This document shows, piece by piece, positions 21,005 to 53,869 of a stretch of 64,000 nt of DNA. The stretch comes from Candidatus Cloacimonadota bacterium (GTDB lineage: Bacteria > Cloacimonadota > Cloacimonadia > Cloacimonadales > TCS61). Below the pieces are notes generated by a model. That model was not told the DNA's origin, ran no database searches, and saw only the letters and a list, made by a program, of their open reading frames with translations. Position numbers and translations under genes: made by a program. Within the stretch, counting starts at the first letter, position 1. Every line of letters starts with the position of its first letter. The stretch covers positions 1 through 64,000 of the forward strand of contig JASUTE010000002.1 of NCBI GenBank assembly GCA_030445745.1, read 5' to 3'.

Positions 21005-21402
21005 GGGTTAATCAAAGAAGATATTAAGCCGAATTCTGTAAACTGCCTAACAAACAGTTCAATGTCCATTTATCTGAATCGGATATTGCTATGCTCTACA
21101 GAGCTCTTTTCCAGACCGATTTCAGCTGCCTACCCGGGAGCTACGACCGGGTCAGTCTAAAGCTCCCCTATTTGGCATTGCACCAGATAAGGCTTTCCTG
21201 GCATTTCGGTTCACACCGAAATCCGGTAGTCTCTTACACTACCTTTTCACCCTTCCCAGCTTTGTAAAAAAGCTGGCGGTTTCTTTTCTGTGGAGCTATC
21301 TCCCTGTCACCAGGACTTCCCGTTAGGAAGTATCTTACCCTGTGGTGTTCGGACTTTCCTCACTGCTGAGCAGTGCAGACATTTTATCTTCTTTGATAAC
21401 CC
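21005..21402 (-). ncRNA. rnpB: RNase P RNA component (bacterial class A)
   Basis: The minus strand carries the hallmark GAGGAAAGTCCGAACACC near 21365-21348 and AGGGTAAGATAC just after it. GTGACAGGGAGATA and GAAGGGTGAAAAGG match further conserved core segments. The ends form a long P1 helix: ATCAAAGAAGAT (21011-21022) pairs perfectly with ATCTTCTTTGAT (21386-21397), extended by GGGTTA and AACCC outside. It cleaves tRNA precursors together with RnpA, encoded at 25.2 kb. The upstream protein gene stops where the P1 helix begins, and recJ starts right after the RNA. The exact ends are estimates. Confidence 0.95.
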
Positions 21403-49674: not shown

Positions 49675-50367
49675 ATGAATTTCTGGCAAGCTTTTGTTAG
49701 CTTAATATACCCCAAAATTTGCCTGAATTGCAATACTAAAATTGAAGATAGTTCCGATTTTCTATGCGTTAATTGCCAAAAGGAATTGACTTTTTTAGAT
49801 GATAACCTGTGCCCCAAATGCGGCAGTCCCCAAAATGCCCAGAATTGCAAAATTTGTGGTAATTTTCATTTCACCAAGGCGCGATCTGTATTTCCTTTTA
49901 GTAAACCGGTTCGAACCCTTATTCATTACCTGAAATATGATGAATTTACTAAAATAGCTGATCTTCTGGCACTTTATTCTTACGAATATCTGCAAAAATA
50001 CTCACCTTTTCCAACTATAGATATAATTTGCCCCGTTCCGCTGCACAAAATAAGAAAAAGAAGTCGTGGTTTCAATCAAGCAGAAAAGATTAGCAGCAGA
50101 ATCGCTTCCTATATGGGTTGGAAACATATTCCTGATCTGCTTTTAAGAAAAAAATACACTTCTACCCAAACTAAACTGAGTAAAAAGGAAAGAAGCGCTA
50201 ATGTGAGTAATGCTTTTTGCTTAAATAGTAAATACCAGATAAAAAACAGGGCAATTTTGGTGGTAGATGATGTTTTTACTACCGGTTCTACTGTGAATGC
50301 TATAAGTAAAGTTTTAGAAAAATATGAAGTTAGCGGAATCTATATCTTGACAATTGCAAGGGCTTAA
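49675..50367 (+). CDS. comF: ComF-family phosphoribosyltransferase-like protein
   Basis: A 230-aa ComF protein. The N-terminus has zinc-ribbon-type cysteines (CLNC, CVNC, CPKCG, CKICG). The C-terminal phosphoribosyltransferase fold has IICPVPLHKIRKRSRGFNQA and the PRPP loop ILVVDDVFTTGSTVNAIS. ComF acts in DNA uptake in transformable bacteria, but many non-competent species keep it, so a role in natural transformation is only suggested. GGAG precedes the ATG. Confidence 0.93.
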   Translation: MNFWQAFVSLIYPKICLNCNTKIEDSSDFLCVNCQKELTFLDDNLCPKCGSPQNAQNCKICGNFHFTKARSVFPFSKPVRTLIHYLKYDEFTKIADLLALYSYEYLQKYSPFPTIDIICPVPLHKIRKRSRGFNQAEKISSRIASYMGWKHIPDLLLRKKYTSTQTKLSKKERSANVSNAFCLNSKYQIKNRAILVVDDVFTTGSTVNAISKVLEKYEVSGIYILTIARA

Positions 50368-50414: not shown

Positions 50415-50777
50415 ATGCAGATAGATATAAAACCAGAAAGAGCGATAGAGTTAATAGAGAAAATTGCTCGTTTCATTGCAGAAAGAAAGATGGCGCCAGC
50501 TGCGATAATGGCGATAGAATCGCTAAGCCCGCTTAATTTTATCGCCAGCCAGTTATTGTATTTTTTGGCTCCTTTCGCCGAGGTCATTTTTAAACCAAAA
50601 GAGTATGAAGAATTTGCTGCTCTGTTGGAAAAAGATGAGTATGTGAAATTACTCATAAAAAGAATTGATGAGTTGGATACCGAACTTCATTTGGAAGAAC
50701 GTAAGCAGAAACGAAAACTTAGAAAAAGAAGAAGAAATAAGATTAAGAAATTTATGGGAAATTTATTCAAAAGATAG
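50415..50777 (+). CDS. Small basic protein of unknown function, first gene of the GlmL module
   Basis: A 120-aa protein I do not recognise. Residues about 33-62 are hydrophobic helices (AAIMAIESLSPLNFIASQLL, then YFLAPFAEVIF), suggesting membrane contact. The middle is acidic (LIKRIDELDTELHLEE) and the tail is strongly basic (RKQKRKLRKRRRNKIKKF), like a nucleic-acid or phospholipid-binding tail. It ends 14 nt before the GlmL-like gene and its stop lies beside that gene's GGAGGAA ribosome site, so the two are surely co-translated. Confidence 0.75.
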   Translation: MQIDIKPERAIELIEKIARFIAERKMAPAAIMAIESLSPLNFIASQLLYFLAPFAEVIFKPKEYEEFAALLEKDEYVKLLIKRIDELDTELHLEERKQKRKLRKRRRNKIKKFMGNLFKR

Positions 50778-50791
50778 ATGGAGGAAAGAAT

Positions 50792-52669
50792 ATGGGCAGT
50801 TCTCGAGAATTAAAGAGAATTATCGCAACAGATTGTGGTAGTACCACAACTAAAGCGATTTTAATTGAATATGTCGACGGCGAATTCCGTCAGACTGTTC
50901 GTGGTGAAGCACCTACAACAGTGGAAAAACCACTTAATGATGTTACCCGTGGTGTTTTGAACGCTGTTACTGAATTAGAAGAGTTAGCCAGACTTAAATA
51001 CGATAACCCCAATATTAAATTTATTAAAGACAACGAAATTCTAATTATGGAAGACGGCGTTACAGGCGATACGGGAGTAGATGCTTATGTTTCCACCAGT
51101 AGCGCTGGTGGAGGTTTGCAGATGATGGTAACCGGTGTGGTCGCTAGAATGACTGGCGAGAGCGCTGAACGTGCTGCTTTAGGTGCTGGAGCTATCGTTA
51201 TGGACCTTATAGCCAGTAACGATAAGCGCGCTAACTATGAAAAAATTGAAAGAATAAGAAATCTGCGCCCAGATATGATCCTGATGGCTGGCGGAGTAGA
51301 TGGCGGTACAACCAAACACGTGGCCGAGCTGGCTGAATTAGTCTCAGCCGCCGATCCTAAACCACGTTTGGGTTCCAGCTTTAAGTTACCAGTTATTTAT
51401 GCGGGTAACACAAAAGCGCGTGAAGCTATTAAAGAAACCTTAGGAGATAAAGTTGACCTTATTATTACAGAAAACCTACGTCCTACTTTGGAAGTAGAAA
51501 ATCTGGGGCCTGCACGCGATAAAATTCATGACTTGTTCATGGAACATGTGATGGCACAAGCCCCCGGATATAATAAATTGATGTCCTGGACAAAAGGTCC
51601 GGTTGATGGTAAAATTAGCAAAATCCCAATTATGCCTACTCCCGCTGCTGTGGGAAATATAATGCAAACAATTGCCAAACAAAACGATATAGAAGTTTTA
51701 GGTGTAGATATTGGTGGAGCTACAACAGATGTATTTTCTGTTTTCACGAAAGAACATATTTTCAACCGAACCGTAAGTGCTAACCTTGGGATGAGCTACA
51801 GTATTTCCAATGTGTTAGCTACTGCTGGGTTAAAAGATATTTTGCGCTGGGTACCTTTCGAAATTAATGAATCTGGCCTACGTAATATGATAAAAAATAA
51901 GATGATACGTCCCACCACCATTCCACAACAGTTAGAAGAACTGGTTTTAGAACAAGCAATCGCAAAAGAAGCATTGAAATACGCTTTTATACAGCATAAA
52001 GAATTTGCTGTTGGCTTAAAAGGTGGTCAAAGAAAACGTGAGATCTCCGAAGCTTTCTCGCAATCTGTTTCAGGAGAAACTATCGTAGATATGATGTCGC
52101 TCGACCTCTTAGTTGGAAGTGGTGGAGTGCTCTCGCATGCACCACGCCGTAATCAGGCTGCTATGATGCTAATAGATGCTTTCTTGCCAGAAGGAATAAC
52201 CAGATTAGCGGTGGACAGTATTTTTATGATGCCTCAGCTTGGTGTTTTGGCTGAAATAAGCGAGAAAGCTGCTACTGAAGTGTTTGAAAAAGACTGTTTG
52301 ATCTATCTTGGCACTTGTGTGGCTCCTGTAGGAAAAAGCAAGCCAGACAAAGTGGCATTAACAGCTCATATCGAACTTCCTAATGGTGAAGTATTTGATG
52401 AAGAAATAAAATTTGGCGAAATGAGATTGCTTCCCTGTGGTGTAGGTGAAACTGCAAAAGCTACGTTGAAACCGGGTCGCGGTTTAGATCTGGGTGAAGG
52501 TAAACATCAGGAAGTTGAAACAGAACTACACGGTGGTGTGGTAGGAATAGTATTAGACACGCGCGGACGTCAACCCTTCGAACTACCTGCCGAAGCTTCA
52601 GAACGTGTACCGCTTCTTAAGAAGTGGATGAAAGAACTTAAATCGTATCCTGAAAAAATTTTAGAATAG
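50792..52669 (+). CDS. GlmL/MutL-family ASKHA ATPase (glutamate mutase accessory type)
   Basis: A 625-aa protein of the GlmL (MutL) family. IIATDCGSTTTKAILIE (about residues 10-26) is the first phosphate loop of the actin/Hsp70 fold and VLGVDIGGATTDVFSVF (near residue 305) the second. SAGGGLQMMVTGVVARMTGE and DMILMAGGVDGGTTKHVAEL are family-specific. GlmL is found beside B12-dependent glutamate mutase subunits GlmS and GlmE and is thought to maintain them, but neither is here. Instead it is flanked by a small basic protein and a barrel/KOW protein. This suggests a relative with another client. GGAGGAA precedes the ATG. Confidence 0.88.
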   Translation: MGSSRELKRIIATDCGSTTTKAILIEYVDGEFRQTVRGEAPTTVEKPLNDVTRGVLNAVTELEELARLKYDNPNIKFIKDNEILIMEDGVTGDTGVDAYVSTSSAGGGLQMMVTGVVARMTGESAERAALGAGAIVMDLIASNDKRANYEKIERIRNLRPDMILMAGGVDGGTTKHVAELAELVSAADPKPRLGSSFKLPVIYAGNTKAREAIKETLGDKVDLIITENLRPTLEVENLGPARDKIHDLFMEHVMAQAPGYNKLMSWTKGPVDGKISKIPIMPTPAAVGNIMQTIAKQNDIEVLGVDIGGATTDVFSVFTKEHIFNRTVSANLGMSYSISNVLATAGLKDILRWVPFEINESGLRNMIKNKMIRPTTIPQQLEELVLEQAIAKEALKYAFIQHKEFAVGLKGGQRKREISEAFSQSVSGETIVDMMSLDLLVGSGGVLSHAPRRNQAAMMLIDAFLPEGITRLAVDSIFMMPQLGVLAEISEKAATEVFEKDCLIYLGTCVAPVGKSKPDKVALTAHIELPNGEVFDEEIKFGEMRLLPCGVGETAKATLKPGRGLDLGEGKHQEVETELHGGVVGIVLDTRGRQPFELPAEASERVPLLKKWMKELKSYPEKILE

Positions 52670-52678
52670 GAGGAACAA

Positions 52679-53803
52679 ATGGCTCAAGCATATTCCCCAG
52701 GTTTAACAGTAACCGAAAGTATAGTTTTAAGGAAAGAACGTATTCTTCCTCTTAAAGGAAAAGTATTGGTAAAAAAAGGCGATAAAGTAAAAGCTGAAGA
52801 TGTTGTAGCAGAAACAAAACTCCCTGGTAAGGTAGTTCCTTTGAACCTATCCAATAAATTGGGAATTACAGCCGATATGGTTAATCAGTACATTAAGATA
52901 AAGCCGGGTCAGGAAATAAGTAAAAACGATTTGATAGCTGAAACTAAAGGTTTCCTTGGACTTTTCAAAAGTCAAGTACGCTCTCCTATCACCGGCGAAG
53001 TAGAAAATATTTCCAAAATAACCGGACAACTTTTGCTGCGTGAACCCAGAATACCAGTTAATACAAAAGCTTTTATAGATGGAATTGTAGTAGATGTAAT
53101 TGAAGAAGAGGGTGTAATCGTGGAAAATAAATCTGCCTATATCCAAGGAATTTTTGGTATAGGTGGCGAAACCATCGGAGAAATCAAGGTTCTAGTAGAT
53201 AGTCCAGAAGCTATTTTGGAAGCTTCAAAAATTGACGAAAGCTGCAAAGATAAAGTGATTGTAACTGGTGCTCTTGCAACCTTTGATGTTATCCAAAAAG
53301 CCCTTAAAGTTGGTGTAAAAGGTATTATTACTGGTGGAATAGACGATAGAGATCTGAAAAAACTTTTGGGTTATGACATCGGTGTTGCCATTACCGGACA
53401 CGAAGATATCGATATTACCATAGTTGTTACAGAAGGTTTTGGTGAAATCAAAATGGCTCAAAAAACTTACAATTTATTAAAGAATTTTGAAGGTCATAAA
53501 TCTTCTATTCATGGTAAAACTCAGATCCGAGCTGGGGTAATGCGCCCCGAAATCATTATTCCCACAGAATTCACGGTAGAAGAACTAGGCACCCAAGAAG
53601 CTAAGATGGCTAGCTTAGAAATAGGAACTACCATCCGTGTTATTCGTGAACCCAATTTTGGTCAAATAGGGAAAGTAACAGCTCTGCCTGAAAAACTTAC
53701 TCCAGTTGAAAGTGAAACTCTAGTACGTATTCTGGAAGCTGAATTAGAAGACGGTAAAAGAATTACGATTCCACGCGCAAACGTAGAAATAATAGAAGAC
53801 TAA
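52679..53803 (+). CDS. Barrel-sandwich/KOW protein partnered with the GlmL-like ATPase
   Basis: A 374-aa protein without a family name I know. Residues 24-115 hold two lipoyl-like half motifs (KKGDKVKAEDVVAETKLPGK and KPGQEISKNDLIAETKG, then VRSPITGEVENIS) but no Met-Lys-Met lysine site. Residues about 190-265 look like a Rossmann fold (DKVIVTGALATFDVIQKAL, GVKGIITGGIDDRDL). Residues about 315-371 resemble a KOW/SH3-like barrel (GTTIRVIREPNFGQIGKVTA, then RITIPRANVEIIE). AGGAGG precedes the ATG and the gap to the ATPase gene is 9 nt. A terminator follows. Confidence 0.75.
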   Translation: MAQAYSPGLTVTESIVLRKERILPLKGKVLVKKGDKVKAEDVVAETKLPGKVVPLNLSNKLGITADMVNQYIKIKPGQEISKNDLIAETKGFLGLFKSQVRSPITGEVENISKITGQLLLREPRIPVNTKAFIDGIVVDVIEEEGVIVENKSAYIQGIFGIGGETIGEIKVLVDSPEAILEASKIDESCKDKVIVTGALATFDVIQKALKVGVKGIITGGIDDRDLKKLLGYDIGVAITGHEDIDITIVVTEGFGEIKMAQKTYNLLKNFEGHKSSIHGKTQIRAGVMRPEIIIPTEFTVEELGTQEAKMASLEIGTTIRVIREPNFGQIGKVTALPEKLTPVESETLVRILEAELEDGKRITIPRANVEIIED

Positions 53804-53809
53804 TAAAAA

Positions 53810-53833
53810 AAAGGGCAGAAATTTCTGCCCTTT
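53810..53833. terminator. Bidirectional terminator: perfect 24-nt palindrome
   Basis: AAAGGGCAGAAA and TTTCTGCCCTTT are exact reverse complements with no spacer. An A-run (53804-53812) on the left gives a T-run for the minus-strand lipoprotein gene. It starts 7 nt after the last plus-strand gene. Confidence 0.85.
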
Positions 53834-53843
53834 ATAATTTTGC

Positions 53844-53869
53844 TGGTCGGCTTCAGCCGGCCATTTTTT
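53844..53869 (+). terminator. Second terminator after the GlmL module
   Basis: TGGTCGGC-TTCA-GCCGGCCA forms an 8-bp stem with one G-U and a TTCA tetraloop, followed by T6. It overlaps the last codon and stop of the minus-strand lipoprotein gene. Confidence 0.85.

Follow-up and report, generated by a model that had tools for sequence, protein, structure and literature searches.

A MutL-type ATPase gene trio of Cloacimonadota as the probable cytoplasmic half of a seven-gene system that includes a DUF6754 membrane operon

The closest described relatives of the genes considered here belong to the MutL family of ASKHA ATPases (PF13941), which includes GlmL (NF040745), the accessory ATPase of glutamate mutase; annotated members lie between glmS and glmE and have been described as reactivation chaperones (PMC4682846). 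OR-4, a GlmL-related ornithine degradation protein (NF040744), is also a PF13941 ATPase. Diol dehydratase-type reactivases and HgdC-type activators, likewise ASKHA ATPases, act on partner complexes, and their clients are soluble enzymes. In a 64,000-nucleotide (nt) stretch from a Candidatus Cloacimonadota bacterium (contig JASUTE010000002.1, positions 1 to 64,000; hereafter the window; genome of 2.04 Mb, 99.3% complete), a MutL-type ATPase gene (B) stands between a gene for a small protein (A) and one for a putative adaptor (C). An earlier note on this DNA had taken the trio for a three-gene GlmL module without glutamate mutase and a candidate for an undescribed system. Comparison across genomes replaces a self-contained set of three genes with a larger system, in which A-B-C probably forms the cytoplasmic ATPase/adaptor half of seven genes and a membrane operon headed by a protein with the uncharacterised domain DUF6754 (PF20539) forms the rest. 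Like the reactivases and activators, B appears to be an ASKHA ATPase with a partner complex, but its associated genes encode membrane proteins instead of soluble enzymes. The system is apparently undescribed and widely conserved, its newness lying in the assembled system and not in the ATPase family; a literature search (mainly open-access, with most subscription journals outside it) returned no paper that deals with DUF6754 or with a mutase-less MutL.

Linkage of A-B-C to the DUF6754 membrane operon

The membrane operon comprises four genes, designated F3, F10, F6 and F5. F3 is a clear DUF6754 member (>400 bits), and F10, F6 and F5 match no Pfam family over threshold. In several genomes of a Planctomycetota-titled group the two halves constitute a single operon, A-B-C-F3-F10-F6-F5, with all genes on the same strand and nearly touching; it is complete in L160, L162, L164, L165 and L177 and nearly so in L163, L167 and L174 (L and G label loci and genomes), and is sometimes preceded by a gene for F7, a protein with two transmembrane (TM) segments. 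The DUF6754 operon, often duplicated in tandem, is a neighbour of B-C in loci of the Zixibacteria, Calditrichota and Eisenbacteria, and in the Zixibacteria and Calditrichota a further protein, F4 (signal and TM segment, ~260 amino acids (aa)), is often encoded between B and C. F7 itself is small, adjoins A in several lineages (L165, L167, L174, L106 and L111) and by eye is like bacterial PH-domain proteins.

The trio is itself conserved. Among 52 Cloacimonadota loci, scoring only those that reach far enough, B has A next to it in 45 of 47 and C next to it in 43 of 43. Of the loci from other phyla, 23 of 25 have C within 1.5 kb of B and 12 of 27 have A within 3.5 kb; in the Planctomycetota-titled group C is near B in 13 of 15 loci and A adjoins it in 11 of 13. 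The two partners, on whose recurrence the earlier note had made its reading depend, thus recur beside B in the Zixibacteria, Eisenbacteria, Fermentibacteria, Calditrichota and Planctomycetota, and the conservation of order and strand across phyla argues that the grouping is not due to chance. No plasmid-borne C was found, pairwise profile comparison (hhalign) gave no homology among the seven families, and none of eight proteins matched the PADLOC defence models.

Co-occurrence of C and DUF6754 was computed over the 199 genomes of the Planctomycetota-titled phylum group, to which locus L093 belongs. C was detected in 48 genomes and DUF6754 in 49, with both in 44, C without DUF6754 in four, the reverse in five and neither in 146 (Fisher p ~1e-33 with all four C-only genomes counted, a value that ignores phylogeny); in one C-only genome, G195, the match to C is a 28-residue edge fragment only. 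Of the 44 genomes with both, 31 have the two on one strand with C immediately preceding DUF6754, at a median distance of 494 nt to the domain, and because the genomes are related, this adjacency is stronger evidence than the p value. Beyond this sample, DUF6754 occurs in 38 of 40 relatives of the window genome, in 25 of 27 genomes of other phyla carrying B and in none of 14 control genomes. All 83 genomes of a Zixibacteria-like group possess DUF6754, in two to six copies, and 82 possess C, mostly as one copy. C and DUF6754 are near-universal in Zixibacteria and Cloacimonadota, so their co-occurrence there is uninformative, while the copy numbers fit one driver for several membrane units, such that a single shared ATPase-adaptor may serve several membrane assemblies. 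Some Zixibacteria-like genomes (G052, G054 and others) have up to three tandem DUF6754 operons together with solitary short DUF6754 genes (frames of ~290–340 aa). At L093 itself (G049, titled Planctomycetota), B clusters with the Zixibacteria, C is truncated and DUF6754 is missing, which may reflect transfer or a misassigned contig.

A natural fusion associates B-like and C-like sequences directly. The second MutL protein of the window genome (G000:C27; L113:8957-11863) joins a MutL ATPase and a C-like domain in one chain of 968 aa, and the fusion is present in most relatives of this genome. It matches C to about residue 303 only and appears to be without the KOW barrel with which C ends. In G026 the fused gene immediately precedes an operon of the long DUF6754 type, so that the two halves are joined in the group of the window genome too.

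Several observations weigh against the linkage of the two halves. In the Cloacimonadota the trio and the membrane operon do not share a locus, and it is mostly from other phyla that their link is drawn; the five genomes of the Planctomycetota-titled group noted above have DUF6754 without C. DUF6754 was not detected in two genomes that possess C (G029 and G033; 91 and 93% complete) or in two genomes of other phyla that possess B (G049 and G050). The AlphaFold2 model of the DUF6754 protein (mean predicted local distance difference test score (pLDDT), 64.6; 16 sequences) is confident only for its FN3 domain and poor for the DUF domain. The idea that fused MutL and long DUF6754 always go together was dropped on finding five genomes with long DUF6754 and no fused MutL (G002, G031, G032, G036 and G039).

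Predicted properties of the encoded proteins

B matches PF13941 over the full length of the profile at 414.8 bits (curated cut-off, 27 bits), which bears out its reading as a MutL-type ATPase, though not as GlmL: it scores 210 bits against the NCBIfam GlmL equivalog (cut-off, 475), 156 bits against the glmL_fam subfamily model (cut-off, 204) and 192 bits against the OR-4 model (cut-off, 600); related proteins likewise fall short of the GlmL cut-offs. The phosphate and adenosine motifs of the ASKHA core are intact (loops D14-K21 and D306-D313, and G444-G445) and, as DxGSTTTK, DIGGATTDxFS and SGG, invariant across 33 sequences except for C15, which makes ATP binding likely. In a tree of MutL proteins, in which long branches leave the exact depth unsure, three groups separate: the B proteins (56 rows; support 97/96), the fused MutL-C paralogues (100/99) and the proteins of GlmL or OR-4-like type (100/100). 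By sequence, then, B represents a clade separate from GlmL. It shares with GlmL the ASKHA core and the Pfam family, at ~26–31% identity over ~400 residues, but the B proteins are ~600–635 aa in length against 461–465 aa for well-delimited GlmL-type proteins, carry a C-terminal extension of ~120 aa that is missing from the 461-aa GlmL, have no glmS or glmE and have other operon partners. No ornithine aminomutase cluster was seen near B.

The AlphaFold2 model of C (pLDDT, 87.8; 46 sequences) has three parts: barrel-sandwich halves (~10–130), a probable swivelling beta/beta/alpha domain (~134–296) and a KOW/SH3 barrel (~310–374). This retains the lipoyl-like half motifs and KOW-like end ascribed to C earlier and substitutes the probable swivelling domain for the supposed Rossmann-like core. 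The N-terminal third shares the barrel-sandwich fold and half motifs of RnfC and NqrA, with sub-threshold Pfam half matches to RnfC_N, NQRA_N and Biotin_lipoyl (the last at 15.9 bits; cut-off, 22.1), but C differs from those proteins in falling below the curated cut-offs and in its swivelling-like second domain, and no Fe-S or flavin motif was noticed in it. Fold searches with the middle domain returned a consistent set of moderate scores (rifampin phosphotransferase, Z 9.2; AF_0055, Z 8.9; RraA, Z 8.7; pyruvate kinase C-terminal domain, Z 8.5), from which it is likely, at the level of fold, to be of the swivelling beta/beta/alpha type. The modelled C-terminus has a KOW-type barrel fold (Spt5 KOW, Z 8.8 with a root-mean-square deviation (rmsd) of 1.0 over 51 residues; NusG, Z 8.7). 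Profiles of solved structures gave weak matches (E 0.1–0.3) to RNA polymerase beta' (residues 13–94) and RraA (160–237). Among the invariant columns of the 46 C sequences there is no Lys or His, which argues against a carrier role and leaves the catalytic His of phosphohistidine swivelling domains without a conserved counterpart.

A has a hydrophobic middle and a basic tail. A simple scan for hydropathy predicts no TM helix in it, it matches no family over threshold in Pfam or NCBIfam, and it is likely membrane-peripheral. Predictions place no TM segments in A, B or C, six in F10 and at least three strong ones in F5. F3 would have a signal peptide, an FN3 domain outside (confidently modelled, Z 13.7), a TM segment, the conserved domain inside and a C-terminal TM segment; the conserved domain is placed inside because basic residues follow the TM segment. 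F6 has a conserved Arg pair, a TM segment, a soluble domain and a second TM segment, an order that makes the soluble domain probably extracytoplasmic. Searches of solved-structure profiles with B, C, DUF6754, F10, F6 and F5 gave marginal matches only, among them FN3 for DUF6754 and one weak match of F10 to an antiporter subunit.

Proposed mechanism and rival explanations

Together these features could describe a novel ATP-driven envelope machine, a reading held tentatively and at somewhat less than even confidence, in which a MutL-type ASKHA ATPase and an adaptor of barrel-sandwich, swivelling and KOW domains power a DUF6754-centred complex, one driver serving several membrane units, as a core system of Zixibacteria, Cloacimonadota, part of the Planctomycetota and neighbours. 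B would bind and hydrolyse ATP, C would dock on B, as the fusion of B-like and C-like sequences in a paralogue suggests, and C would relay the conformational change of B to the cytosolic domain of DUF6754. A may help to keep the soluble part at the membrane. The outcome for the membrane complex could be gating, assembly or a drive across the envelope. Tol-Pal or TolQ/ExbD genes adjoin in two lineages and weakly favour a task connected with the cell envelope: a Tol-Pal-type operon lies 3' of C in Zixibacteria-type loci L096, L098, L101, L105 and L109 (Pfam-checked for L098:12331-16863), and TolQ/ExbD-type genes lie upstream of A in L160:3109-4879 (Pfam-checked), with the same layout in L162. 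Such neighbours are no more than hints.

Glutamate mutase was rejected as the client of B: GlmE exceeds its cut-off in none of the 40 relatives of the window genome (one sub-threshold match), whereas it is encoded beside GlmL in three annotated controls with the order glmS-glmL-glmE-mal. This agrees with the earlier note on both the lack of a linked glutamate mutase and a client other than that enzyme, which is likely; of the two findings that the note named as refuting it, neither was obtained, and the loading or reactivation of a client that it suggested is one mechanism among those conceivable. B could instead be a reactivase or chaperone of another adenosylcobalamin (AdoCbl) mutase, either methylmalonyl-CoA mutase or lysine 5,6-aminomutase, to which A and C would contribute accessory subunits, in keeping with the position and described role of the annotated PF13941 relatives and with the presence of a methylmalonyl-CoA mutase and an aminomutase in the window genome. 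However, that methylmalonyl-CoA mutase has its own MeaB-like GTPase adjoining, no mutase was found near B in the loci examined and no riboswitch upstream in the five sources scanned. Further, seven genomes of 93–98% completeness in which both B and C occur (G002, G003, G011, G012, G013, G014 and G022) match none of PF01642, PF09043 and PF06368 yet all carry DUF6754, which disfavours both enzymes as clients and makes such a role unlikely; the survey covered methylmalonyl-CoA mutase, the lysine 5,6-aminomutase alpha subunit and GlmE, other AdoCbl enzymes falling outside it. In the window genome the aminomutase genes (L125; PF09043 and a B12-binding subunit) are beside CoA-transferase-like genes, away from the trio.

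The likeness of the KOW barrel to Spt5 and NusG, together with the RraA fold score and the weak RNA polymerase beta' and RraA profile matches, would suit a membrane-tethered transcription or translation factor acting on RNA, ribosomes or RNA polymerase, but barrels of the KOW/SH3 type are promiscuous, none appears to be present in the fused MutL-C and the operon partners are membrane proteins, so that this role also has a low probability. A carrier function of the lipoyl or biotin type for C, with the system as a part of glycine cleavage or lipoylation, is very improbable. The barrel-sandwich half motifs are consistent with that idea, as are the genes for glycine cleavage and a lipoate ligase that immediately precede A in Fermentibacteria (L084:2338-7600) and the glycine cleavage genes of Eisenbacteria-type loci, but the gene linkage is limited to those lineages, Biotin_lipoyl stays below its cut-off and C has no invariant Lys. 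It is quite unlikely, finally, that A-B-C and DUF6754 are old core genes that travel together without a common function; both are near-universal in some phyla, where their co-occurrence is uninformative, but where both are patchy C and DUF6754 coincide and form one operon, and the two halves adjoin in other lineages too.

Were A-B-C the ATPase/adaptor half of the seven-gene system, it would provide context and a testable client for a large clade likely auto-annotated as 'glutamate mutase L', and would unite PF20539 with the families A, C, F10, F6 and F5, to which no Pfam entry is assigned over threshold. It would also suggest that several phyla about which little is understood have a conserved function of the envelope in common; among these phyla the Planctomycetota have some members that are culturable and manipulable.

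The locus and its surroundings

The three open reading frames (ORFs) and the short gaps between them are as first described (Table 1), and the strong ribosome-binding sites noted there were recovered by direct reading as GGAGG before B and before C, with a weak site only before A. The terminator proposed behind C could correspond to two hairpins, the first near-perfect and the second with a T-run; terminator-like sites number 5 against 3.6 expected in shuffles, which is weak alone, while the position behind C is good. The two paralogous membrane operons of the window genome include one with a DUF6754 protein of ~1000 aa, which has a large N-terminal region.

Table 1. Positions of the genes and associated features (window coordinates unless a contig or locus is named)
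Feature	Position	Strand	Details
Gene A	50415-50777	+	120 aa; ORF list
A-B gap	50778-50791	+	14 nt; contains GGAGG
Gene B	50792-52669	+	625 aa; MutL-type ASKHA ATPase, PF13941 415 bits
B-C gap	52670-52678	+	9 nt; GGAGG overlaps the end of B
Gene C	52679-53803	+	374 aa; putative adaptor, AlphaFold2 fold and alignment of 46
Terminator-like hairpins 3' of C	53810-53863	+	first 53810-53833, second 53844-53863
Short-DUF6754 operon	G000:C6 32907-36179 (L128:8908-12180)		window genome
Long-DUF6754 operon	G000:C36 37242-42484 (L129:7243-12485)		window genome; DUF6754 protein of ~1000 aa
comF-like phosphoribosyltransferase gene	49675-50367		directly upstream of A
RNase P RNA	21010-21394	-	bacterial class A, complete, 260.8 bits

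A homologue of the comF-like gene is present in 42 of 50 Cloacimonadota loci, mostly just before A.

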